DNA from: Bacteriovoracaceae bacterium
Lineage (GTDB): Bacteria > Bdellovibrionota > Bacteriovoracia > Bacteriovoracales > Bacteriovoracaceae
DNA: 64,000 bases
Direction of reading: 5' to 3'
Assembly: GCA_023954635.1 (NCBI GenBank)
Contig: JAGSHI010000001.1
Coordinates: 1-64,000, forward strand
Part shown: positions 8,625-26,577 of the stretch, piece after piece
How positions within the stretch are numbered: the stretch's first letter is position 1
Layout of the letters: every line of letters starts with the position of its first letter
The notes under the pieces: generated by a model
Told to the model about the DNA's origin: nothing
The model's database searches: none
Seen by the model: only the letters and a program-made list of their open reading frames with translations
Made by a program: the position numbers and the translations under genes

Positions 8625-9593
8625 TTATCTAAAGAAACATTTTTTTATTTTCATTTTTTCTAGATGATTATTAAGAATTGGATCATCTCCAGCTCTTCGC
8701 TTAAGGTACTTATAAAATGCACGTTTTTTTGCTTCATCTCCCTCTGAGTTTTTAGCAACTTGATGAAGCATATCTGCCCAACTATTAACTGAATCTCTAT
8801 TAAAGTTAGGGTCTGAAAACAGTTTCCATAATTTATGAGGATTTTTAGGGTTCAATAATTCGACCTTTCCCTCTGGAGTTTTTGAAATTTCCATGATGGC
8901 TTCAACAAGCTTTTTCTCTTGCCTTGTTCCATACTCAGCAAGCCCTAGGAATAAACCTAATGCTCTTTCCTCTTCCGGAGCAACTAGGTCTGCACTGACT
9001 CTTGAGAAATCGCCAACTCCAAGTGTTCCCATTCTTTCTGAAATAAAATTTTTCAGACTTCTAGGATTTCTAGGAAGTACATCATTTAGGACTCGTACAG
9101 CCGAAGCATTTTGTAGAACCTCTAGAGTGAACTTAAAACCATGACTTGATAACGAATCGCTAACGCAAGCAGAGCAGGCTAGAACAACAGCTCCTCTTTT
9201 TCCGTGTCTGTTGGCCAACCAGATAAGATTATTAATTGCTGAGACAACATCTTTTTTGTTCATGCTGTCTGCTGGCTTATCTAAAACCTCTTTTAAGGCA
9301 TTTCTAATTTTAATATCTTCAGAAGACCCTGAGATGCTTGCTAAAATTCTTTTGATTTCAACCTTCGTCGGGATCCTGTCACCAAACATATTTAAGGATT
9401 TCCAGGAAAGAGCGACATAATCAGAGGTCCTTTTGGCCGCTGCACCCTTAATTCCTTTTTTTCCAAGTAGCTCTATAAGCCCAGAGTCATTTACTAGGAC
9501 ATCAATAAGCTTTCCTGCACCGGCAGCATTAGCATTAAAGCTAAATAAGCAGATTAGAAGACTTAAAGTCATTAACTTTTTAATTGAATACAT
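8625..9593 (-). CDS. Secreted protein of unknown function (322 aa)
   Basis: An N-terminal signal peptide (basic MYSIKK, hydrophobic core, cleavage near FNANA) is followed by an almost entirely helical, basic protein. A CSAC pair (about residues 140-143) could form a disulfide or bind metal; the sequence otherwise lacks motifs I know. The helix-rich character suggests an armadillo/HEAT-like or simple helical bundle fold, which is only an impression. It is convergent with the 1560-aa secreted protein and divergent from the 1412-aa one, with no gene overlapping it. Whether the three are functionally linked cannot be decided from the sequence. Confidence 0.7.
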   Translation of the reverse strand: MYSIKKLMTLSLLICLFSFNANAAGAGKLIDVLVNDSGLIELLGKKGIKGAAAKRTSDYVALSWKSLNMFGDRIPTKVEIKRILASISGSSEDIKIRNALKEVLDKPADSMNKKDVVSAINNLIWLANRHGKRGAVVLACSACVSDSLSSHGFKFTLEVLQNASAVRVLNDVLPRNPRSLKNFISERMGTLGVGDFSRVSADLVAPEEERALGLFLGLAEYGTRQEKKLVEAIMEISKTPEGKVELLNPKNPHKLWKLFSDPNFNRDSVNSWADMLHQVAKNSEGDEAKKRAFYKYLKRRAGDDPILNNHLEKMKIKKCFFR

Positions 9594-9754
9594 AAATGCA
9601 CCTTTTCTCTAGTTCACTAGCTTCATTATTAGGTTCAGATACTTTTCGGCAAAATACGATACAAACTTAAGCCTCAAATCCATGAATATATGGGCTAAAA
9701 CTCAAGGTTTTTCAGATATTTACCGATAATTATACTGGATTGGAGCAAACAAAA

Positions 9755-12700
9755 ATGAGAGTTCAGGCAGGGCCCAAATTCATATTAATTATACTTGGAA
9801 TAATAATGTTTTATTCCGGTGGAGTTTTTTCTTCAGAAAAAACGAAATGGCTGAACCTATATGCAAACTCTAGTTTTGGAAATCAAGTTCTCTTAGATCT
9901 TGATCCGAGTACAAAGAAAATACGCTTCACTTTTGATAAACCAAAAATTAATAATAAAAAAGAAGTCTTTGTTCTGGATGCAGACACACCAGAAAACGTC
10001 TCAAAGTCAATCGTTAAACTTTCTGATAAAATGAAAAACTCCTGGGGCCTGAGGTCTGGAGTTCAAGAATCTATTGTAAAGAAACTTTCAGAACTTATTT
10101 ATTTAAATACAAAAACGGGAAAAGTATTACATTTTGGAGTTAGTGGAAGGTCTCCTGCTTCTAGAGCTCCGGCCTATAGCCGCAGTGTTGGGTTATTTAA
10201 CATAAGACTTTCTTCCTCTAATCACCTCTTTCAAATGCGGGCAGTATTAGATGAAAGCTCCAATATCGAAAGATTTTCTCTTGTTAGTGAAGAACAAGAC
10301 ATGAGTAAATTTGAAGTAACGAGGAAAGGGGAGTCAATTGCTCTCGTTTCAAAAAAAGATCAGAAAGTTCTCTTCTTTTTTAGAATAAATGAACATGGAG
10401 ATGATTTAAATGAAGTTGTTTTTTATAATAAGCTTCAAGGGTTTGAGCTAGAGCAATTTACACGTAACCGTTACTCTCTTAAGAGAAATGATTCGGAGTG
10501 GTTAGTTCAAAGATATAGTGAGTCAGATCATGAATTTATTGATTTTACAGAAGAAGTTGTTTTAACTAATAAAAGTGTTGGTCATGAACCTGTCGTTAGA
10601 GTTCAGGGATCAGATAAATATTTCCCGTCGTTCAGCGAAGAAGAAATTAGTAACTTAATTAGTAAGGTCCTTCTTATCTCAAGCTCTGAAACTCTTGAGT
10701 CTGAGTTTCAAAGCACTTATCACAATTGTATGATTGAAAAATATCAAGTTGCTTTAAGTAGTAAGAAGAGTCCAGATGAGAGTGAACTTCTTGAGGGCTG
10801 TAAAAAAGTAGCTTTACTTCACGTAGAGTATAAAGACCTCTTGGAGAAATCAAAGCTACAGTTAAGTGAATCCGAAATATCTACAGAAGATTTAGAGAAG
10901 GCAATGCTTGCAACTCACTTAGAGTTTAAGTCTTGCTTAGTAGAGAAAGATATAATGATTAAGGATGATTTTCATTCTGAAATTAATTTTATTGAAATAT
11001 CGTCAAGAGAGGGTGGCCTTACCTTCCTCGAAAATCTTGTTGACTGTAAACAAACAGCAAAAGGTAGAAGCTACGTCGAAGAAATGCAAAGAAGTGTAGA
11101 AGGTGAAGCTAACTTGACAGCAGTTGGGACAACTTCTCAAACTGATTACATAATGGGAGCAAAACAACTCTCTGAAGCGAGTTATAAGAAGTGTACTGAT
11201 AAGATTGGTGCTCGTTATGCTGACTTTTGCAAAGATTATAGCGAATTGGTAAGTAGCTCATCATTATTTGAAAAGTCACATCTGTCTTTGTTAAAAGGTT
11301 CTAGAAAGAAGACGTTTAGAGATTGTATTGCTTTAGTTCAAAAGTCTGCATTGACTAACTTTAAATCGGGTCAAAGCCATGAAAAGGTGCTTTCTGAATC
11401 TCATAAGTCACAGGTCGCATGTGCCGCAATCGCTCTTCAACAACAAGTCGAGGATGAAGGTATTTCTGGTATCGAAACTTTTTTAAGTCGAATCGATTTT
11501 ATAAAAGGTCTCGGAATAAGAGTATCGAGTTCTGTTTTAAGTGAAGTTAAGCAGTCAGTAAGAACATGTTTAATCCAAAAAAGTAATGAATCGATTACAT
11601 TAAGTGATTTACTCTCAAGGCATGATCAAAATCTTGAAGCATGCCGAATTTCTAGTGTTAAAGATAAACTTCCACTTTTTTATAAATTTGTAACAAACAT
11701 TAGAATTAATAAATTTACAAATGATAAAGAAATTACCGAGTACCTAGAAGGACGAATTACAAGGAACCTTAAAAGACAAATAAGGGATCTTGTGACTGTT
11801 GCAGATATCAATTCAACTATTGCTAAAGATAGTATTTTTTCTTTTTCAATGATTATCAGCAAAATTATAACTGAAAACCTTAAGTCGACTTTCAGCCTAG
11901 ATGTTGAGGATAACCAAGTCTATCAATTCAACGTAGATAGTTTTGATGCTCTAGAATCTAAAGTAAATGTTCTTATTGGTAACAATAGTGGTAGTTCTTT
12001 GAGAACGGCTCTCGTCAAATACTTTGGAACTGCTTTTGAAAAGAATGGGGAGTGGGGAGTAGAAATCTACTCAAATGAACTAATGGTTAATTATCATAAC
12101 GAGAGAGCGTCTTATGAACTAACTCAAAAAGTTATGAAAAGTATCAAAGACATTGAAATATTAAAAGTAATGGTGACATCAATTCAAAAAGAATATGCAG
12201 AATGTTTAACTAAGTATTCTCCAAATGATAAGAATACAACATTCTTAGCTGAACTTAATAAATGTGATAAGAAGAAAGAAGGTGGTCTTATCTTCTCGTT
12301 AGCTAAAGACCTTTTTGAAGTTCAGGTTGCGAGTCATTACCCTAAAAATTCCGTACAAGCTTCAAAGATACTCAACCCTATTCATTATTTAAATGAATGT
12401 ATTAAGAGAGTTGATGAGTTTGAAGGAATGGGGATTGATGAATTTAGAAAGTTCGCGGTAGCCTGTACTGATATTGCTCAAATAGATATTGCACACAATA
12501 TAAACCTGAACTTGATTGAAAGTTACAAGCCAGTAATTCGAGGTCAAAATATTAGAAAGCCCAATCAGATAGATTACTCTTGTCAGAAAGATATTATTTT
12601 AAATATTCATAATAAGGTTGGATCAAACTCTGATCTTACTCTTGAGGCATTTAAAGCAGAACATAAACTAAATGGAAAAATGGTTAGACCAATATATGAG

Positions 12701-18050: not shown

Positions 18051-18821
18051 TTGGAAGAGAAGAAGAAAGAGAAAGATATTGATATTAATGAACAATCATC
18101 TAAAAAATCAGGTGTTCTAGGACTTCTTGAGACTCTCTTGAGAAAGCTTCCTAATATTAGTTATGTCTTTCTTTTGTCTCCGATTCTCATTATGTTTGTC
18201 ATCTGTGTGGGGGCCTCTCTTACCCCCGGAGCATTAATCTTTTTAAAGGTCGAAGAGCTAACTCGTGATGGAAGTGTTCTTCTACGTGCATTTGGTTTGG
18301 GATGTTCTCTAGGTTTAGGATTCTTTCTCTACGGCCTAACGATTATCTTTATCGTTCCACTTTTTAACTTACCATTTATTCCTTTCGTTCGAAGTTATCG
18401 AGGGCCATGGTTTAGTTTAGAATCAATTCCTTGGTATATTCATAATGCATTAACATATCTTGTTCGTTATACAATTTTAGACCTTATGACTCCTTCTCCA
18501 ATTAACCTTCTCTTTTACAAGATGATGGGAATGAAGATGGGAAAAAACGTCATGATTAATAGTACTAATATTTCAGACCCATGTTTAATTGAACTAGATG
18601 ACTATGTTGTTATAGGTGGTTCCGCTTCTTTGATGGCCCACTATGGAATGAAGGGATATCTGATCATTGATAAGTTAGTGATAGGAAAAGGTACTACTGT
18701 AGGATTAAATGCAAATATAATGGGTGGAGTCAGAATAGGTGAGAAATGCACTATCACTCCAAATGCAGTTGTGCTTCCTAAAACTGTTATACCTGACCAT
18801 ACAAAATATGGAATTGAGTAA
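18051..18821 (+). CDS. Membrane-anchored left-handed beta-helix (hexapeptide acyltransferase-like) protein
   Basis: 256 aa from a TTG start, supported by GGAG five bases upstream; there is no alternative start before the first membrane segment. After a charged leader come two or three hydrophobic segments (about residues 37-60, 82-112). The C-terminal 100 residues form a short left-handed beta-helix of hexapeptide repeats: MGKNVMI, LIELDDYVVIG, LVIGKGTTVGL, IMGGVRIGEKCTI, then VVLPKTVIPD. Similar modules occur as the C-terminal part of Pls/Dlt-like synthetases and in acetyltransferases, so it may acylate an envelope compound, but the repeat number is low and catalytic His is uncertain. It is divergent from the LysR regulator and 50 bases before hemN. 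Confidence 0.75.
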   Translation: MEEKKKEKDIDINEQSSKKSGVLGLLETLLRKLPNISYVFLLSPILIMFVICVGASLTPGALIFLKVEELTRDGSVLLRAFGLGCSLGLGFFLYGLTIIFIVPLFNLPFIPFVRSYRGPWFSLESIPWYIHNALTYLVRYTILDLMTPSPINLLFYKMMGMKMGKNVMINSTNISDPCLIELDDYVVIGGSASLMAHYGMKGYLIIDKLVIGKGTTVGLNANIMGGVRIGEKCTITPNAVVLPKTVIPDHTKYGIE

Positions 18822-18871: not shown

Positions 18872-20215
18872 ATGATAAATGACCAACTATTAATTCAAAA
18901 ATACGATCGACCAGGACCAAGGTATACGAGTTATCCTGCCCATCCTCATTGGAAACAGTCTCCTTCGCAAAGTGAGTGGTTAGAGCAAGTCTTACTTCGA
19001 AAAGAACTTGGTGCAAATTTTGATCTTTATGTTCACATTCCTTTTTGCAGTAGCCTTTGCATTTATTGCGGATGCTCTAGAGTCATCACTAAAGATATGG
19101 AGTTAGCAAGTAGGTATGTAGATTCCCTAATAAAAGAATGGAATTTATATCAGGAAAAATGCGGACCCATCTCTCTATCAAGTATCCATCTTGGGGGAGG
19201 GACTCCAACTTTTCTTGAACCTAGTCTTTTAAGTAAACTGATTACTTCAATTAAGGGGAATAAAGATATCAGTTGGGGAGCCGTAGAAGTTGACCCTAGG
19301 GTAACGACCAAAGAGCATTGTGATGTCCTCATTCGAAACGGATTTCAAAAATTTTCTTTAGGTATCCAAGACTTTGATCCTGTTGTTCAAAAAAATATTA
19401 ATAGGAAACAGCCCTATGAAATGGTCGAAGATATGGTTTCGTATCTAAGGGACAATGGAGTTGAGAGTATTAACTTTGATATTATTTACGGACTTCCTGG
19501 GCAGTCTGTTGAAACAATAAAATCTACCTTTGAAAAAGTTGAAAAATTAAAGCCTGATACCATCGCATTTTACAGTTATGCACATGTTCCTTGGAAAATT
19601 AAATCTCAAAAAGCTTTAGAGAAAATTGGTCTTCCAAAAGCAGAAGAGAAAAGAGACCTCTATGAAGAAGGTAAGAGATACCTTGAGAAGCTTGGTTATG
19701 CTGAGCTTGGAATGGATCATTTCTCTCTCAAGGATGATCAACTTTATCATGCTTATGAAAAGGGAGAACTTAAAAGAAGTTTTATGGGCTACACCTCTAA
19801 AAAGGGAGAATGCCTAATAGGTCTAGGTTGTTCTAGTATCTCAAGTTCAGGTTTGGGATATGTTCAAAATGAAAAAGATGTAACAGCATATATGAATACT
19901 GTTAATTCAGGAAACCTACCTTTGATTTATGGGCATACCATGAGTCAGCAAGATAAAATGATCGATCAAACGATTCAAGATCTTATGTGCCAAGGTAAAA
20001 CAGATTTAGAAAGAGTTCTAAATAGTCTTGATGATAATCATGTCAATAACATCCGAAACACTTATAACGAGATGATGAGTGACGGTCTTCTAAATTTAGA
20101 AAAATCGAATTTAGAAATATTAGAAAAAGGTAAACCGTTTGTTCGAAATATTTGTATGGCATTGGACCCTAACTTGAAGATAAAGTCAGAAAATCAATTT
20201 TCGAGAACGATCTAA
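18872..20215 (+). CDS. hemN: Oxygen-independent coproporphyrinogen III oxidase
   Basis: A radical-SAM enzyme that decarboxylates coproporphyrinogen III to protoporphyrinogen IX without oxygen, a haem biosynthesis step. From the ATG at 18872 the protein has 447 aa, matching HemN (about 450). It shows the N-terminal YDRPGPRYTSYP block and HIPFCSSLCIYCGC, whose Cys59, Cys63 and Cys66 bind the iron-sulfur cluster and Cys68 is the extra HemN cysteine, then GGGTPTFL, VEVDPR, FSLGIQDFD and NFDIIYGLPGQ. This distinguishes HemN proper from HemW. An in-frame GTG at 18866 is an alternative start. Its stop codon overlaps by four bases that of the convergent regulator gene. Confidence 0.95.
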   Translation: MINDQLLIQKYDRPGPRYTSYPAHPHWKQSPSQSEWLEQVLLRKELGANFDLYVHIPFCSSLCIYCGCSRVITKDMELASRYVDSLIKEWNLYQEKCGPISLSSIHLGGGTPTFLEPSLLSKLITSIKGNKDISWGAVEVDPRVTTKEHCDVLIRNGFQKFSLGIQDFDPVVQKNINRKQPYEMVEDMVSYLRDNGVESINFDIIYGLPGQSVETIKSTFEKVEKLKPDTIAFYSYAHVPWKIKSQKALEKIGLPKAEEKRDLYEEGKRYLEKLGYAELGMDHFSLKDDQLYHAYEKGELKRSFMGYTSKKGECLIGLGCSSISSSGLGYVQNEKDVTAYMNTVNSGNLPLIYGHTMSQQDKMIDQTIQDLMCQGKTDLERVLNSLDDNHVNNIRNTYNEMMSDGLLNLEKSNLEILEKGKPFVRNICMALDPNLKIKSENQFSRTI

Positions 20216-20742
20216 TTTGGAATGATTAATAAATCTTCTAGAAAAAAGGCGGAGAGTTCGTTTCTTCCTGAGAGGTTACTTTTTTGATAAATACCAGTCG
20301 CCTGCTGGCGAACAGTTTTCTCACTTGTTTCTCTAATGTTTGCAATTTCTTTATTGGAAAGGCCCTTAAGAATGAGAAGGGAGATTTCTTTCTCTGCTAG
20401 AGTTAGATTCCAGTCACTTAATTGGTCATCAATTTTTTTAGAAAGGCCCTCTGTTAAAGTCTTAGTTTCAAGCTTCCATTTATCGAGATCACTTCTCACT
20501 TTTGAGAGGTCAATATTGAGTTTTTGTACCTCTTTTTTTGTCTTAAAAAGTTGTAACCAGAGGGTGAGAATTCCCACTAAACAGAGTATGATTATGCCTG
20601 CTTCTATGGCCACGTGGCCCATGGATGAGCCATGTGCCAGGTCTTCTGCTACATCGCCAATGAGAAGCCCTATGACGACGATGAAAATAAGGCTCAAAGT
20701 TAGTCTTTCTTTACTTTCAAGTGTGGATAGGACTTTTGTCAT
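20212..20742 (-). CDS. Membrane-anchored LuxR-type transcriptional regulator
   Basis: 176 aa with an unusual order: two hydrophobic segments (about residues 15-33 and 44-65), a coiled-coil-like stretch (66-105) and a C-terminal LuxR/GerE helix-turn-helix (LAEKEISLLILKGLSNKEIA, then SEKTVRQQATGIYQKSNL). No receiver or autoinducer domain is present, so the membrane part is the only candidate sensor. It is divergent from the type III polyketide synthase operon with 158 bases between, which contain a perfect 12-bp palindrome; control of that operon is therefore a reasonable inference. Confidence 0.88.
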   Translation of the reverse strand: MTKVLSTLESKERLTLSLIFIVVIGLLIGDVAEDLAHGSSMGHVAIEAGIIILCLVGILTLWLQLFKTKKEVQKLNIDLSKVRSDLDKWKLETKTLTEGLSKKIDDQLSDWNLTLAEKEISLLILKGLSNKEIANIRETSEKTVRQQATGIYQKSNLSGRNELSAFFLEDLLIIPN

Positions 20743-20787: not shown

Positions 20788-20799
20788 GGACATATGTCC
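20788..20799. promoter_or_regulatory. Perfect 12-bp palindrome, candidate operator
   Basis: GGACATATGTCC lies in the divergent intergenic region between the membrane-anchored LuxR-type gene and the polyketide synthase operon. Dimeric LuxR/NarL-type proteins bind short dyads of this kind, but no binding site is known for this protein. Confidence 0.45.
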
Positions 20800-20900: not shown

Positions 20901-21953
20901 ATGACTCTAATTAAATCAGTTACAGCGCAAAAACCACCTTATGAGTACACAACTGACCAGATAGTGAGGTCTGCCGAGCAGTGGCTGAGTGACGCACCTG
21001 AGCTCATCAGAAGAAAAGGTATTAAAATTTTTAAAAGCGCTAATATAGATAAAAGGGGTTCAGTAGCTCCTTTGGAATTTATTTTCTCTGATGCGACCTT
21101 TGAAGAAAAAAACGATTTTTATGTGAAGTCATCGATAGAGCTTAGTGAAAAAGTTTTAGCTAAAGCACTTGAAGACTCCGGTTGGGAAGCTAGAGATTTA
21201 GATTATATTATTACTACGAGTTGTACAGGATTCATGATTCCATCTGTTGATGCATACCTCATTAATAAATTCGACATGAAAACTGATATTGTGAGATTAC
21301 CTGTTACAGAAATGGGTTGCGCTGGAGGAACAAGTGGTCTCATTTATGCTCATAGTTTTCTCAAGAATAATCCAGGAAAAAAAGCGGCACTTATAACTGT
21401 AGAGGCCCCTAGCTTAACATTCAGAAAAGATGATCTTTCTGTCGAGAATTTAGTAAGTACTGCAATCTTTGCTGATGGAGCAACATGTACATTACTTGAA
21501 GGTGGAGAAGAAGGACCAGGGCTTAAAATATTAGACTTTGATATGTACCACTTTCAAGAAGCGACTTATTTAATGGGTTACAATTTAACGAATACTGGCT
21601 TTAAAATTGTCCTTGATAAAGATGTTCCAGACTCAATCAAATCTCACTTCCCAAATATACTGCCTCCATTTCTTAAAAAGAATAATTTGGAAGTAGCTGA
21701 TGTGGAGAATTATATGTTCCACCCTGGAGGGAAAAAAATAATTAATATGGTTGAGGATTATATTTGTCGATTTGATAAAGATATCAGTGACTCTATAGAT
21801 GTTCTACGTCAACATGGTAATATGTCTTCCAGTACAATTATTTTTATTCTCGAACGATTTCTTAAAAAAGAAATCAAGAAAGGGGAGAAAGGTTATATGC
21901 TAGCATTTGGGCCAGGCTTCACAGCTCAAAGTCTTCTTGTCGAGTGGAGCTAA
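20901..21953 (+). CDS. Type III polyketide synthase (chalcone/stilbene synthase family)
   Basis: 350 aa, the normal family length. It condenses an acyl-CoA starter with malonyl-CoA units and cyclises the chain, giving for example alkylpyrones, alkylresorcinols or phloroglucinols. The catalytic triad is complete: Cys140 in TEMGCAGG, His274 in MFHPGGK and Asn307 in QHGNMSS, with spacing close to that of chalcone synthase. The ribosome-binding site AAGGAA precedes the ATG. It is the first gene of a four-gene unit; the next start codon overlaps its stop (TAATG). In a bacterium with abundant long-chain acyl chains the likely product is an alkylated pyrone or resorcinol lipid, but starter and ring type cannot be read from the sequence. 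Confidence 0.93.
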   Translation: MTLIKSVTAQKPPYEYTTDQIVRSAEQWLSDAPELIRRKGIKIFKSANIDKRGSVAPLEFIFSDATFEEKNDFYVKSSIELSEKVLAKALEDSGWEARDLDYIITTSCTGFMIPSVDAYLINKFDMKTDIVRLPVTEMGCAGGTSGLIYAHSFLKNNPGKKAALITVEAPSLTFRKDDLSVENLVSTAIFADGATCTLLEGGEEGPGLKILDFDMYHFQEATYLMGYNLTNTGFKIVLDKDVPDSIKSHFPNILPPFLKKNNLEVADVENYMFHPGGKKIINMVEDYICRFDKDISDSIDVLRQHGNMSSSTIIFILERFLKKEIKKGEKGYMLAFGPGFTAQSLLVEWS

Positions 21954-23959
21954 TGACAAAAAAAAATAGCTTACTTATTCTTTTACTTTTTTTAACGGCC
22001 TTCACGGCATGGTTTTCTAGTGACATTAAACAATTAAATCCAGAGACACTTTTTCTAACTAAAGAAAGTGCTGGGGAATATTTAAAATTTAAAGAAAAAT
22101 TTAACGAATCTGATCACCTTGTAGCAAGTATCAACTTCTCTGGGGATCAGGATGCTGTTGAAAAATTAACTAGTATTGAAAAATTAAAAGAATCATTTTC
22201 AAGCTTAACATTTATTATTCCTGATTTTAACAAAAGAGAAATTGGTCCAAAAATGACTCTTAAATTAATTGGCCCAAACCATGTCGGTTTTATGGCCATC
22301 GGGAAAAAAGAGTCTGGAGCATTTAAAAAACTCATCACAGAGCTTAAGAATAAAAAAGGATGGAGGCTTTCAGGCCTTCCTTATACTAATTATATGTTGG
22401 ATAGCTATTCAAAAAACATACAGGAAAAACTTTTTCCTTTTATGTTTATTCTTTCATTTATTCTTTGCCTTCTCATAACTCGAAATTTTCCGGCTTCAAT
22501 CTTTATATTCGTCCCTTCTCTTTTTTCTGCATTATTCTCTTTAGCATCGATAAAGCTTATTTTCGGCTCAATGAATATGGTTACTTCGATCGTTCCATTA
22601 CTTTCGTTCTCAATAATATTCTCTTTGGGCTTTCATCTCTACTACAGCCTTGTCGAGTATCAAGATTTTAAAACAGCATTGAATCGAAAGAAAAAGCCAA
22701 TTTCATTGATGCTTTTTACTACAAGTATTGGTTTTGGAGCATTATTAACAAGCAAAATCCCTGTGATTGCTCACTTTGGAATTCTTGTGGCCGGTATGAC
22801 ATTTCTTTCTGCCATATTTTCAATTCTCTTTTTCTACACAGGAGAAGAGGTCTTGTTGAAGTATGGGATACGCAAATGGATGAACGTTAAGAGTTTGCCA
22901 GAGAAATGGTTTTCAAAGGGTTCACCTTATAGCTTTATTATAATTTTAAGTGCTCTTCTCTTAGGAGGAGGCTCATATGTTTACTTTAAATTACCTGTAC
23001 TAACTGATGCCACTCGATACTTCCCAGATGACTCAGGAGTTAGAAAGGAAATGGATTGGGTTAGCCAAAATGTTGCAGGCTTTCCTCTCTATAATTTTGT
23101 ATTAAAATCTAATAGTGACGAGACATTTCAAAAAATACAGAAAATGGAAGTCATCGAAGGGGAGTTACGAAGTGAATTCGACTTCGCTTCAAATCTCGTC
23201 TCTCCAGTGAGTCTAACGAGAGATGCCAATCTCTTTTATAGTGGGAATCATCAAATACCTGAAAATAAATTTGCTTTCTTTGCACTATATTCACGTATGC
23301 CAGATTCTTTAAAAGATTCATACCCGTTAGAGAAAGACTATCGAATGACCATTATGGGGAAGTCACTGAATGTCACTGAATACAATCAAAATCTAGGAAG
23401 GTTAGAGAAATTCTTTAAAGATAACGGTATCGTTTATTCAACAAACGGGCTGTATCATCAATTAATGTCTTCTCAAGATGAAATGATCAAAACATTATTT
23501 AAAAGTTTTGGTCTGAGCGTGGCCCTTGTCAGTCTTTTGGCCTTCTTTTTCTTTAAAAAACTAAGGATTCTTTTTATATTTTTACTTGTAAATACTGTTC
23601 CAGTTTTCTTCAGTTTTATCTTTATGTGGCTGGCAGGGCTGTCAATTAATATTGCAACAGTGATGACATATAGTATCTCGATCGGCTTAGTCGTTGATAG
23701 TTCTTTTCATGTACTCCATAGCTTGGGAGAAGGAAGGACTAGCTTTAAAGAATATGTGAAAACTACAGTGAATCCAATACTCGCATCTTCATTTATCTTC
23801 ATACTTAGTTTTAGCTCGTTTGCCTCAAATGATTTTTTACCAATCAGAGAGTTTGGGGTCATACTCGCTTTTATATTATTAATTGGTATGTTTATGGACC
23901 TTTTTGTTCTGCCTACTTTGTTTCTCGGAGACAAAGATATAGAGGGGAGGATTCAATGA
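21953..23959 (+). CDS. RND-superfamily (MMPL-type) exporter
   Basis: 668 aa from the ATG at 21953, which overlaps the polyketide synthase stop and is preceded by GGAG. The protein has the two-fold RND plan: one N-terminal membrane segment, a periplasmic loop of about 160 residues, five or so membrane segments (from FPFMFILSFILCLL), a second segment and loop (from about 325), and another set of membrane segments at the end. Loops are short compared with AcrB, as in the hydrophobe/MMPL branch that moves lipids, hopanoids or polyketide lipids. The Asp in the second membrane set (SIGLVVDSSFHVLHS) fits a proton-relay residue. The context indicates transport of the product of the upstream polyketide synthase across the inner membrane. 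Confidence 0.88.
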   Translation: MTKKNSLLILLLFLTAFTAWFSSDIKQLNPETLFLTKESAGEYLKFKEKFNESDHLVASINFSGDQDAVEKLTSIEKLKESFSSLTFIIPDFNKREIGPKMTLKLIGPNHVGFMAIGKKESGAFKKLITELKNKKGWRLSGLPYTNYMLDSYSKNIQEKLFPFMFILSFILCLLITRNFPASIFIFVPSLFSALFSLASIKLIFGSMNMVTSIVPLLSFSIIFSLGFHLYYSLVEYQDFKTALNRKKKPISLMLFTTSIGFGALLTSKIPVIAHFGILVAGMTFLSAIFSILFFYTGEEVLLKYGIRKWMNVKSLPEKWFSKGSPYSFIIILSALLLGGGSYVYFKLPVLTDATRYFPDDSGVRKEMDWVSQNVAGFPLYNFVLKSNSDETFQKIQKMEVIEGELRSEFDFASNLVSPVSLTRDANLFYSGNHQIPENKFAFFALYSRMPDSLKDSYPLEKDYRMTIMGKSLNVTEYNQNLGRLEKFFKDNGIVYSTNGLYHQLMSSQDEMIKTLFKSFGLSVALVSLLAFFFFKKLRILFIFLLVNTVPVFFSFIFMWLAGLSINIATVMTYSISIGLVVDSSFHVLHSLGEGRTSFKEYVKTTVNPILASSFIFILSFSSFASNDFLPIREFGVILAFILLIGMFMDLFVLPTLFLGDKDIEGRIQ

Positions 23960-25128
23960 GTAAAATATATGACTTTGTCGTCGTTGGAGGGGGGCCCTCT
24001 GGGAGTGTGACTTCATGGCTTCTCTCAAAGCAAGGGTTTCAAGTTGTTCAAATTGAGAGACAAAAAGAACTATCAAGAAAAGTTTGCGGAGAATATTTAA
24101 GTCCACTTGGTGTCGATATTCTTAATGACCTAGGTTTATTAGAAGAGATGAAAGAGTTTCCAAAGGTCTTTGGAATGAAGATCGTTTCACCAGCTGGAAA
24201 GATAGTGAAAACAGACTTTCCAAGTAGTGAGACCAGCTTAGGTTATGGCCTCTCTGTTAATAGGAAATCCTTTGATACAAAACTGTTAGAGAAATCTACT
24301 TCTTCTGGAACAGAACTAAAACTTGGAGTAGCTGTTAGAAGCTTCTCTAAAACTTCCTCAGGCTGGAAAATTCAATTAAGCGACAATTCTATTTTATATG
24401 CCCGCTTCTTAATCGGAGCAGATGGAAGAAATGGAATTGTTGCAAAAGAGCTAGGCCTAAAAATAGAAGACTCTGTTAAGAAAGTTGCACTTCATTGTTT
24501 TATAGATAAAAAAACTGATAATGAAAGATATGGTGAAATGCATATATTGGAAGGTGGTTATATAGGACTTGATCCGACAGGAAAAAGAGAGATGAACTTC
24601 TCTTTGGTATGTAATGCCGATGAAATCATTAAAAATAATGGAAAACGAGAATGTTTTAATGCTTTTATTAAGAAATCCCCTCTATTGTTAAATGAATTCG
24701 GACTTCTTGGACGCGACGTTGAAATTAATGCTGTAACACCTATCACTAACTCAGTTAAGTCCTTACTTATTAGTGGGGCGGCTCTCATAGGAGATGCCGC
24801 AGGGTTTATTGATCCACTTACTGGTGAAGGAATGACAAACTCTCTTTGGATGGCCAAGGAGTTCGCAGCTCGAGTCAAGGAAAAGCAAAGTACTCTGTTT
24901 GACTTTGATAATGCTTCTATTGATTTTTTAAAGATGAAAGAGCGTAACTTTAAACAAAAAAGTATCTTAAATAAATTGTTCCAGGTTATTATTAAGTATC
25001 CTATCATTTGTGAACTTATTGCAAAATTTCTTCAAGGAAGTAAATTGCGAGGGGATACTTTTATAGGAATTATTGGAAATATATACACTCCACTTCGTGG
25101 ATTTAAAAAGATGATTACTAAGGGATGA
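23956..25128 (+). CDS. FAD-dependent oxidoreductase (geranylgeranyl reductase/halogenase-like)
   Basis: 390 aa, starting inside an ATGA overlap with the exporter gene. The N-terminal dinucleotide-binding motif is VVVGGGPSGSVTSWLL, followed by the Glu of IERQ and the RKVCGEYLSPLG block of the geranylgeranyl-reductase family. The central LIGADGRNG and the second FAD motif ALIGDAAGFIDPLTGEGM are also present. Members reduce isoprenoid double bonds, hydroxylate or halogenate aromatic rings. In type III polyketide clusters such an enzyme often hydroxylates the resorcinol ring to a quinol, so a tailoring role is likely; the reaction itself cannot be decided. Confidence 0.9.
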   Translation: MSKIYDFVVVGGGPSGSVTSWLLSKQGFQVVQIERQKELSRKVCGEYLSPLGVDILNDLGLLEEMKEFPKVFGMKIVSPAGKIVKTDFPSSETSLGYGLSVNRKSFDTKLLEKSTSSGTELKLGVAVRSFSKTSSGWKIQLSDNSILYARFLIGADGRNGIVAKELGLKIEDSVKKVALHCFIDKKTDNERYGEMHILEGGYIGLDPTGKREMNFSLVCNADEIIKNNGKRECFNAFIKKSPLLLNEFGLLGRDVEINAVTPITNSVKSLLISGAALIGDAAGFIDPLTGEGMTNSLWMAKEFAARVKEKQSTLFDFDNASIDFLKMKERNFKQKSILNKLFQVIIKYPIICELIAKFLQGSKLRGDTFIGIIGNIYTPLRGFKKMITKG

Positions 25129-25715
25129 AAATGAAACTATTGTATGTCTTATTGTTAAACTTGATTTTGGTAAACTTTTCATTTGCTGGTGAAGTCATTA
25201 ATAACTGCAAGAGTGACACATTTAAAAAGTCTCTTAAATCTAATTGTTATATGAAGTTTGACATGGAGAGTACAAAGGCGGGAATGATTACAACAGCATT
25301 CACTGGTGTTGTAAAAAATATACAAACTGCTTTTAATTGGAATGGGTCAGAGTTTGCCAATGCATTGATTAAATTTAATGTAAAAGATATGGATACAGAT
25401 AACGATAGTCGTGATGAAAAGATGTATGAAAAGAGCTTTGAGTCCGATAAACATCCCATTATCACGGTTCAGATCGGTGGACCTTTAACAGCAGGCTCTC
25501 ACCAAGGAGTTGATGCCTTAATGACTGTCAGAGGACAAAGAAAAGAAATTAAGGTGAACCTTGAAACTTCTGTAAATCCAAATGGGTATTTTGTTATATC
25601 GGGTAACAGCTCTGTAAGCTTGAAAGCGTTGGGGATTCCTGATCCTAGCATTTGGATCGCTTCTGTAAGAGATCGAGTAGATATCAAGTTTAAATTAATT
25701 GGAAACATTAAATAG
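25125..25715 (+). CDS. YceI-family periplasmic lipid-binding protein
   Basis: 196 aa with a signal peptide ending NFSFA, starting in an ATGA overlap with the reductase gene; a second in-frame ATG lies six bases on. The mature part has the YceI pattern: FDMESTKAGMITTAFTGVVKN, NALIKFNVKDMDTDNDSRDEKM, then SDKHPIITVQ, the GVDALMTVRGQRKEI block and the C-terminal DRVDIKFKLIG. The family folds as a lipocalin-like barrel that holds polyisoprenoids or other long amphiphiles. As the last gene of the polyketide operon it may carry the lipid product through the periplasm. It converges with the outer-membrane protein gene four bases away. Confidence 0.92.
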   Translation: MKMKLLYVLLLNLILVNFSFAGEVINNCKSDTFKKSLKSNCYMKFDMESTKAGMITTAFTGVVKNIQTAFNWNGSEFANALIKFNVKDMDTDNDSRDEKMYEKSFESDKHPIITVQIGGPLTAGSHQGVDALMTVRGQRKEIKVNLETSVNPNGYFVISGNSSVSLKALGIPDPSIWIASVRDRVDIKFKLIGNIK

Positions 25716-25719
25716 TTAC

Positions 25720-26577
25720 TTAGAAGTTTATCGTTAAATTTAAACCGGTCATTTTAGTCGTATTGGCCGGCTCATAATAGTATCGAGTTTCTAAAACTTC
25801 ATCATTATCATCAAGAAGCTGAACTTCTGCTACATCACTATCTTCTATTTGATAAATTCTGTAGTAGGGAGAAACTGTAAATGAATATCCTTCTCCTACA
25901 AAGGTAAATTGAGCTTCAAACTTTAAACTTTTTCCTTTGTCCTGTTTGTTTTCTATTGATGGATGATCAGGAATGGCTTCCCCAAGATTCGATTTAACAT
26001 TTCCGATTAAAAGATGATTATAGGTAAGACCAAGTCCAAAAATATTTCCTGAACTTAAAACAAAGTCTAACCCAGTGTGAACGGGAATCATTGTATAAGA
26101 AATTTCTCTACTGTAGTCTCCTTGAACACCTGAATTTGCATTTTTTAAGAGTCTTCCATTCAACGCTATCGAGAGATCCCAAACGGCATCCATTACTTCA
26201 ATATCCGATGATTTTCCTAGGCCTAAACTAAAGCTAGAGATAGAGTTTTGAGTATTAATTTTTACTGCTGTTCCATCGCTATACTGACCATCATAAACGG
26301 TATTTCCAGATAGGTAGTTCCAGTTTCCAAACCAGTAATAGTCATTGGAAGATATGAAATTTGAATAATCTACTGTAAACCCTTTCATGGTTCCTGAGTC
26401 TTTCATGATTTGCTCGTTACTTTTATCTTGGTCATATTCCCGATAATCCCACTTTGCCGTCTCGTATCCAACCCTCAGATTATCTCTATGAACATGACTC
26501 GAAAGAGAAAAATCACCGGCCAAAGTATTGAAAACAGGAGCAAAAATTATGAATATCAATGCGTAAATTTTGAGCAT
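25720..26577 (-). CDS. Predicted outer-membrane beta-barrel protein
   Basis: 285 aa with a signal peptide ending NTLAG and alternating hydrophobic/aromatic strands throughout, ending in LTINF; a C-terminal Phe is the usual signal for the outer-membrane assembly machinery. About ten to twelve strands can be guessed. No specific family is recognised. It is convergent with the YceI gene, so it is not part of that operon, although an outer-membrane partner for the polyketide pathway would be welcome. Divergent from the gene at 26689. Confidence 0.7.
   Translation of the reverse strand: MLKIYALIFIIFAPVFNTLAGDFSLSSHVHRDNLRVGYETAKWDYREYDQDKSNEQIMKDSGTMKGFTVDYSNFISSNDYYWFGNWNYLSGNTVYDGQYSDGTAVKINTQNSISSFSLGLGKSSDIEVMDAVWDLSIALNGRLLKNANSGVQGDYSREISYTMIPVHTGLDFVLSSGNIFGLGLTYNHLLIGNVKSNLGEAIPDHPSIENKQDKGKSLKFEAQFTFVGEGYSFTVSPYYRIYQIEDSDVAEVQLLDDNDEVLETRYYYEPANTTKMTGLNLTINF

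Follow-up and report, generated by a model that had tools for sequence, protein, structure and literature searches.

A type III polyketide synthase operon with its own transporter and carrier in Bacteriovoracaceae, and its predicted aromatic lipid product

In srsABC of Streptomyces griseus and pkq of Mycobacterium smegmatis, genes for a type III polyketide synthase (PKS), an ICMT methyltransferase and a FAD hydroxylase form one operon that leads from an alkylresorcinol to a quinone. This conversion has been reported for the PKS-ICMT-FAD operon kind (PMC9927152; PMC10896814), and we see the same order in loci of S. clavifer, S. globisporus and Mycobacterium. The bpsAB operon of Bacillus comprises PKS and ICMT genes, with no adjoining FAD, transporter or carrier gene. 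In planctomycetes and in ‘Saltatorellus ferox’, type III PKS genes occur in operons with FAD or methyltransferase genes (PMC10896814). The S. ferox operon has a gene for a lipid/isoprenoid-binding protein, and the linkage of PKS and carrier is therefore already in print (PMC10896814).

The locus described here lies in a window of 64,000 nucleotides, the whole stretch of DNA analysed, from a Bacteriovoracaceae genome. Like bpsAB, it is an operon of few genes centred on a type III PKS, and like srsABC and pkq it combines such a synthase with a FAD enzyme of the KxCGE...TGEG type. It differs from the latter two in having no methyltransferase, in the placement of its PKS (p-AU 5e-7) and its FAD enzyme in other clades, and in the addition of an RND transporter, a YceI carrier and a membrane-bound LuxR regulator. 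The planctomycetal and S. ferox operons differ from it in having methyltransferases, in having no RND exporter described and in a PKS shown to make alkylresorcinols (PMC10896814). Judged from its genes, the operon would be a variant of the Srs/PkQ phenolic-lipid kind and not a member of it. The preliminary description of this DNA named no described pathway with exactly this gene order; this stands for the literature searched, where no paper on type III PKS, MMPL and YceI together was found, although each part is of a sort already familiar from the Srs/PkQ operons.

Table 1. Features of the operon and its upstream region in the window
Feature	Position	Strand	Evidence
LuxR/GerE-type regulator, divergent, LIC13292-like	20212..20742	-	GerE 30.6 bits; LIC13292_fam 90.5 bits
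Perfect palindrome GGACATATGTCC, putative operator	20788..20799	.	single match in window, partial copies in relatives
Type III polyketide synthase, class A	20901..21953	+	Pfam, tree, catalytic residues, model
MmpL/HpnN-type RND lipid transporter, cassette-specific family	21953..23959	+	tree, predicted fold
FAD oxidoreductase, KxCGE...DPLTGEG type (geranylgeranyl-reductase / SrsC-like)	23956..25128	+	FAD_binding_3, motifs, trees
YceI-family periplasmic lipid-binding protein, hydrophobic N-terminal segment	25125..25715	+	PF04264, PDB relatives, hydropathy

The four genes overlap as first described (Table 1). The PKS/transporter junction is TAATG, the last base of the stop TAA at 21951-21953 being the first base of the transporter ATG at 21953 (with an in-frame GTG at 21944 as another possible start), and the transporter/FAD and FAD/YceI junctions are ATGA at 23956-23959 and 25125-25128. 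This overlap, conserved order and co-occurrence together give good support to the proposal that the four are transcribed as a unit and cover synthesis, tailoring, inner-membrane export and carriage in the periplasm. A gene-neighbourhood search, which had been suggested as a check, recovered the exact order PKS-MMPL-FAD-YceI in six genomes of four genera. The divergent LuxR gene precedes it in G002, G058, G123 (the same contig as locus L067, Halobacteriovorax marinus isolate 36_234_T64) and G125; G041 has the same order without LuxR, and G030 has PKS-FAD-YceI without the transporter. Among 97 genomes, the transporter is present in 24/27 with the PKS and 1/70 without it (p = 2e-18), the YceI gene in 24/27 and 2/70, and the FAD gene in 16/27 and 0/70. 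Scans for E. coli-type promoters and terminators gave no excess over shuffles. The downstream gene at 25720-26577 (-) and hemN were rejected as parts of the operon, as they are kept within the same genus only.

A type III PKS is found in 48 of 129 genomes of the family (E <= 1e-30), and two classes can be told apart. The commoner arrangement, the class B cassette, reads LuxR | FAD-PKS-ICMT-YceI-MMPL and shares its regulator, FAD-I, YceI and transporter families with the window, but it has an ICMT gene, as in the Srs, PkQ and Bps operons, and the family's ordinary alkylresorcinol-type PKS with the signature V108, C170 and W227. Class A carries Cys108, Pro170 and Tyr/Phe227 (C108, P170 and Y227 in the window), so that the residue at the ArsB-281 position is not the Trp of the alkylresorcinol clade. 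A tree test rejected the two classes as one clade (p-AU 5e-7), and the window synthase is not an ortholog of the ordinary one. In trees, by contrast with the synthases, the window FAD-I, YceI and transporter all fall in cassette-specific clades, of which those of the transporter (100/100) and YceI (99/98) mix the two synthase classes. Since the synthases are non-orthologous and the FAD enzyme, transporter and carrier are common to both, the conserved cassette works with a second synthase class, here without a methyltransferase. The absence of a methyltransferase was noted correctly before, and is informative because the majority of family cassettes include one. No ICMT-family gene was found in the window operon; three lie elsewhere in the genome, and the two that were examined do not resemble cassette members (38 and 57 bits on a cassette model that gives full-length members 149-230 bits). 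An in-place swap of synthases at one chromosomal site was rejected: in genus g3, class A and class B cassettes differ in their flanks, and the exchange is therefore older or took place at the cassette level.

The synthase has both chalcone/stilbene synthase domains, N and C, above Pfam cut-offs (61 and 66 bits) and a complete Cys-His-Asn triad (C140, H274, N307). Its model (pLDDT 94.2) is nearest in the PDB to PKS11 and THNS (TM 0.93), at 28% and 27% identity by structure alignment, and the class has no characterised close relative. The transporter falls below family cut-offs by sequence, including that of the HpnN equivalog TIGR03480 (37.7 bits against 751.85). Its model (pLDDT 88.3) has the MmpL/HpnN fold by Foldseek, with two halves and two periplasmic domains; the nearest structures, MmpL4, MmpL5, MmpL3 and HpnN, share this RND fold (TM about 0.70-0.75) but only about 10-15% identity with what is a family of its own. 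The last protein matches PF04264 (43.5 bits, cut-off 23.7), has 5w2x, 1y0g and 1wub as PDB relatives, and bears a hydrophobic, signal-like N-terminal segment at residues 3-21 by hydropathy.

On balance, the probable product of the operon is a single aromatic polyketide lipid, bound to membranes, which the encoded proteins would both synthesise and move out of the inner membrane. Sequence and models provide the basis: a single gene unit, an intact triad, an MmpL/HpnN fold and a signal-like YceI N-terminus. The membrane-bound regulator would sense an envelope condition and act at the palindrome. The PKS would then extend an acyl starter with malonyl-CoA; position 227 corresponds to Tyr224 of THNS and Trp281 of ArsB, a site at which aromatic side chains direct the reaction towards aldol closure (PMC6274091), and Tyr227 may thus favour a resorcinol- or phloroglucinol-type ring. 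The FAD enzyme would hydroxylate this ring to a hydroquinone or quinone, the RND protein would take the lipid from the inner membrane, and YceI would take over as its periplasmic carrier, perhaps as far as the outer membrane. Taken as a whole, this would be an Srs/PkQ-like phenolic-lipid operation that has envelope transport of its own, uses a different synthase class and leaves out O-methylation. The relatives' shared kit with two synthase classes hints at a putative quinone-like envelope lipid.

The nature of the product is where other readings have to be weighed. The synthase may make a long-chain lipid, as the preliminary description supposed, but its class stands apart from the known alkylresorcinol and alkylpyrone synthases. 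It could instead be RppA-like and form a small malonyl-primed aromatic of naphthalene or phloroglucinol type, leading to a pigment or antibiotic that the RND and YceI proteins handle in place of a long-chain lipid. C108 and Y227 are the equivalents of Cys106 and Tyr224 of THNS, the best NCBIfam model is DpgA (160 bits against a cut-off of 425), and RppA is placed on the class A side of the tree, although on a long branch and with a support of only 92/78. We nevertheless find this rather unlikely: L033 and L067 have Phe at position 227 despite an identical gene order, Pro170 and HPGG are unlike THNS, the second active-site Cys is also present in the long-chain enzyme ORAS (PMC6274091), and transporter and carrier are of the lipid type. 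An unlikely alternative concerns the FAD enzyme (FAD_binding_3, 82 bits), called a reductase in the preliminary description. As a true geranylgeranyl-reductase-like C=C reductase, it would saturate the lipid chain or an enone, and the product would be a structural phenolic or pyrone envelope lipid and not a quinone. Its KxCGE cysteine motif, its best curated family (TIGR02032 GG-red-SF, 137.6 bits) and its best single-sequence PDB match (3oz2, digeranylgeranylglycerophospholipid reductase) fit that role. However, the TIGR02032 score is below the cut-off of 158.8, profile matches also include halogenases and monooxygenases, and the KxCGE/TGEG motifs recur in the third enzyme of the Streptomyces and Mycobacterium PKS-ICMT-FAD operons, at the SrsC position. 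The window-type FAD-I and the SrsC-like FAD-II of class B loci are nevertheless not one clade (rejected, p 5e-4). A halogenase role was rejected, as the CGE of cassette FAD enzymes corresponds to GES, with the Cys missing, in halogenase-like paralogs.

Sister cassettes favour hydroxylation over chain reduction. In three of them a U32 (UbiU/V-like) protein takes the place of the FAD enzyme, and a UbiE/MenG-family enzyme adjoins the PKS. When ubiquinone is made independently of O2, the U32 proteins UbiU and UbiV substitute for flavin hydroxylases (PMC6747719), and the exchange at one place beside UbiE recalls that of the UbiH-type and U32 hydroxylases of ubiquinone synthesis, with the difference that the ring comes from a PKS and not from 4-hydroxybenzoate and that the cassette has no UbiA. 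This replacement makes ring hydroxylation the most likely role of the FAD enzyme, and a quinone-like compound the most likely product. The UbiE of G019 and G166, the best one of its genome, may have a housekeeping role instead. Two further explanations concern the purpose of the operon and its coherence. A compound exported chiefly as a weapon or self-protectant in predation or competition, with RND and YceI serving efflux and immunity, would suit the presence of predators among the Bacteriovoracaceae and the frequent bioactivity of phenolic lipids. This is very improbable, as a PKS in 48/129 genomes, a minority of the family, does not belong to a core set of predation genes and no toxin or immunity gene lies nearby. 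Variation of gene order among relatives could suggest four unrelated genes adjacent by accident, but overlaps, co-occurrence and cassette-specific clades contradict this and reduce its probability to a negligible one.

If a quinone-like lipid is formed, one possibility is that Bacteriovoracaceae build a polyketide quinone of respiratory type by way of a type III PKS, with O2-dependent (FAD) and O2-independent (U32 and UbiE) ring tailoring interchangeable. This compound would be the only quinone of the cell in genus g18, where MenD, futalosine genes and a credible quinone prenyltransferase are missing. We regard this reading as doubtful. In G166, respiratory genes were sought in 1.0 of about 2.1 Mb as a test of the sole-quinone idea: E. 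coli nuoH, sdh, cydA, cyoB and ndh had no counterpart there, and only NuoEFGI-like proteins turned up. For this half of the genome, quinone respiration is not favoured.

The cassettes amount to a natural experiment: two polyketide synthases that are not orthologous share one set of regulator, oxidase, transporter and carrier families, and the feature that these recognise must therefore be present in both products. This opens a direct way to test what the little-understood YceI family and MmpL-like transporters do in the trafficking of phenolic lipids. Type III PKS lipids are also linked to the FAD/U32 hydroxylase exchange of ubiquinone synthesis; such an exchange for polyketides was not found in the literature searched, where type III PKS and the U32 family together returned one paper only, unrelated by title.

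The four genes first listed stand, but the set left out the divergent regulator, which belongs to the system. Below the LIC13292_fam cut-off of 200 bits in profile searches, its product has two N-terminal transmembrane helices predicted by hydropathy (residues 14-32 and 44-62). A divergent LIC13292-like LuxR gene is a trait of the Bacteriovoracaceae PKS-FAD-YceI-MMPL cassette that the window shares, and such genes adjoin cassettes of both synthase classes. The palindrome is the sole match in the window at <=1 mismatch (0.13 expected). It was not found in the corresponding gap of L034; in the same gap of L032, L033 and L036 it recurs at 11/12, 9/12 and 10/12 positions, each with p <= 0.01 against shuffles.

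Genes overlapping by their start and stop codons had been proposed for the operon, and both its place and its codon overlaps hold: four reading frames fill precisely the interval 20901-25715, the TAA of the type III polyketide synthase (PKS) gene and the ATG of the transporter gene have one base in common, and the remaining two junctions read ATGA. By family searches the first gene encodes a type III PKS, the second an RND permease, the third an oxidoreductase with a FAD_binding_3 domain and the fourth a YceI protein. The transporter is a weak match by sequence, and its AlphaFold model (pLDDT 88) resembles MmpL4, MmpL5, MmpL3 and HpnN (TM about 0.70-0.75). The PKS model (pLDDT 94) resembles PKS11 and THNS (TM 0.93) and has a complete C140-H274-N307 triad. 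Elsewhere in the window, a hexapeptide acyltransferase-like protein gives a sub-threshold match of 48 bits to the Pls/PosA NRPS terminal domain.

Coordinates of features in the window and in compared loci
Feature	Sequence	Position	Strand	Remark
Hexapeptide acyltransferase-like protein	window	18051-18821		
LuxR/GerE-type regulator gene	window	20212-20742	-	two predicted membrane helices
Perfect palindrome GGACATATGTCC	window	20788-20799		gap between LuxR gene and PKS
Four-gene operon	window	20901-25715	+	
ICMT-YceI fusion frame	L052 (G016)	9523-10647		
YceI, PKS, U32 trio	L079	8369-11247		Candidatus Hydrogenedentota contig
FAD, MMPL, YceI-domain, UbiE-like, PKS genes	L080	2420-10047		Planctomycetota contig
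Lipid-type gene row	L241 (G000, contig C13)	1979-12363		

The divergent LuxR/GerE-type gene belongs to the cassette; such a gene adjoins it in most relatives, whether the synthase is of the window type (class A) or of the family's alkylresorcinol-type, ICMT-linked type (class B). The palindrome has a single match within the window (0.13 expected at one mismatch) and recurs in the corresponding LuxR-PKS gap of three compared loci, L032 (11/12), L033 (9/12) and L036 (10/12), each with p <= 0.01; it was not found in that of L034. Summed over the 14 other gaps, its score was 112, against a maximum of 104 among 300 shuffles.

A PKS was found at E <= 1e-30 in 48 of 129 Bacteriovoracaceae genomes, 11 of them class A by score. 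The exact order, a divergent LuxR gene and then PKS-MMPL-FAD-YceI, is present in the window genome and in G002, G058, G123 and G125; Halobacteriovorax marinus isolate 36_234_T64 (L067) has the same order as G123. G041 keeps the order without the LuxR gene, G022 has YceI relocated upstream, and G030 is without the transporter. Commoner among relatives is a divergent LuxR gene with FAD-PKS-ICMT-YceI-MMPL, including variants with NnrU-like, UbiE-like or AMP-ligase genes. Among 97 genomes, the cassette transporter, called across a clear score gap (195 vs 104 bits), occurs in 24 of the 27 that have a class A or B PKS, compared with 1 of the 70 that have neither (p = 2e-18; p = 3e-12 when restricted to Bacteriovoracaceae). 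In two loci, L052 and L262, a single reading frame encodes both the ICMT methyltransferase and the YceI carrier, a hint that the two act on the same lipid.

In a PKS tree of 75 rows, class A lies outside a 99/90 clade of class B and synthases of Bacilli, Actinomycetota and Planctomycetota. Its characteristic residues are Cys108, Pro170 and Tyr/Phe227; at these positions Val, Cys and Trp are found in class B, in PKS11 and in the Streptomyces enzymes. The other components do not track this split: class A FADs and some class B FADs form one clade (FAD-I, 96/91), transporters of most class A loci intermingle with those of the remaining class B loci (99/100), and YceI proteins of both classes form a single cassette clade (99/98). 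Constraints uniting the PKS classes (p-AU 5e-7), grouping class B FADs without class A (p 9e-98) and keeping the transporters unmixed (p 0.002) were rejected. The groups had been defined after inspection of the initial trees, a choice for which the AU test makes no correction; rejection is by a wide margin for PKS and FAD and by a modest one for the transporter. Judged from these trees, a conserved tailoring-and-transport kit serves two non-orthologous synthases. Within one genus (g3), G123 and G125 carry class A and G050 and G124 class B, at different chromosomal sites. Bacteriovoracaceae also have a third class of type III PKS, deeply separated from the others, at L057-L063, followed by a protein of ~147 aa (5/7 loci) and a UbiE/UbiG-like methyltransferase.

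PKS position 227 aligns with THNS Tyr224, CHS Gly256 and ArsB Trp281, and an aromatic residue there favours aldol ring closure over pyrone formation (PMC6274091); a ring is thus the more likely class A product. The synthase may be an RppA-like enzyme using a short starter; its Cys108 aligns with THNS Cys106, and a cysteine at that position occurs also in the long-chain enzyme ORAS (PMC6274091). For the FAD enzyme, geranylgeranyl reductases are the nearest curated model (below cut-off), and KxCGE and TGEG motifs are common to it and the third gene of PKS-ICMT-FAD operons, in which a methyltransferase and a hydroxylase reportedly convert alkylresorcinols to quinones (PMC9927152; PMC10896814). 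The strongest hint comes from three class A cassettes (L037, L038 and L256, of G019, G021 and G166), which hold YceI, the transporter and, instead of FAD, a UbiU/V-like, multi-cysteine U32 protein (Peptidase_U32, 40-48 bits, cut-off 22.4) with a methyltransferase of the UbiE/MenG family (in G019, 185.8 bits against a cut-off of 158.4). Because UbiU and UbiV, both U32 proteins, contribute to O2-independent hydroxylation during ubiquinone biosynthesis (PMC6747719), the FAD enzyme would, by analogy, most likely hydroxylate the ring. The Candidatus Hydrogenedentota trio likewise joins U32 to a PKS with class A residues, the YceI, PKS and U32 genes being direct neighbours.

The window operon resembles the Srs/PkQ phenolic-lipid operons in its parts and likely logic. 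It is nevertheless not a member, since its PKS lies outside the resorcinol clade, ICMT is missing and its FAD enzyme lies outside the SrsC clade; it operates in the same manner and adds envelope transport of its own. The literature searched yielded no type III PKS together with MMPL and YceI; for 'Saltatorellus ferox', however, a PKS operon that includes a gene for a lipid/isoprenoid-binding protein has been published (PMC10896814), and on the Planctomycetota contig (L080) FAD, MMPL, YceI, UbiE-like and PKS genes adjoin one another.

Could the cassette, with FAD or U32 and UbiE tailoring, supply a respiratory quinone? In the window genome it would be at most an extra source, since MenD, a MenA-like UbiA and UbiE are present on one contig. 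In G019 and G166 no MenD over cut-off, no futalosine genes and no credible UbiA were found, and the best UbiE of each genome is that of the cassette; G030 and G036 likewise gave no MenD over cut-off. Such organisms as G019 and G166 may simply not respire, since in half of the G166 genome no typical quinone-linked respiratory enzyme was found, and we regard a respiratory quinone as a low-probability product. The window genome has another, uncharacterised lipid-type operon on contig C13, with ketoacyl synthase/AfsA, AMP-ligase, two ICMT, epimerase, PPDK-like and weakly UbiA-like genes.
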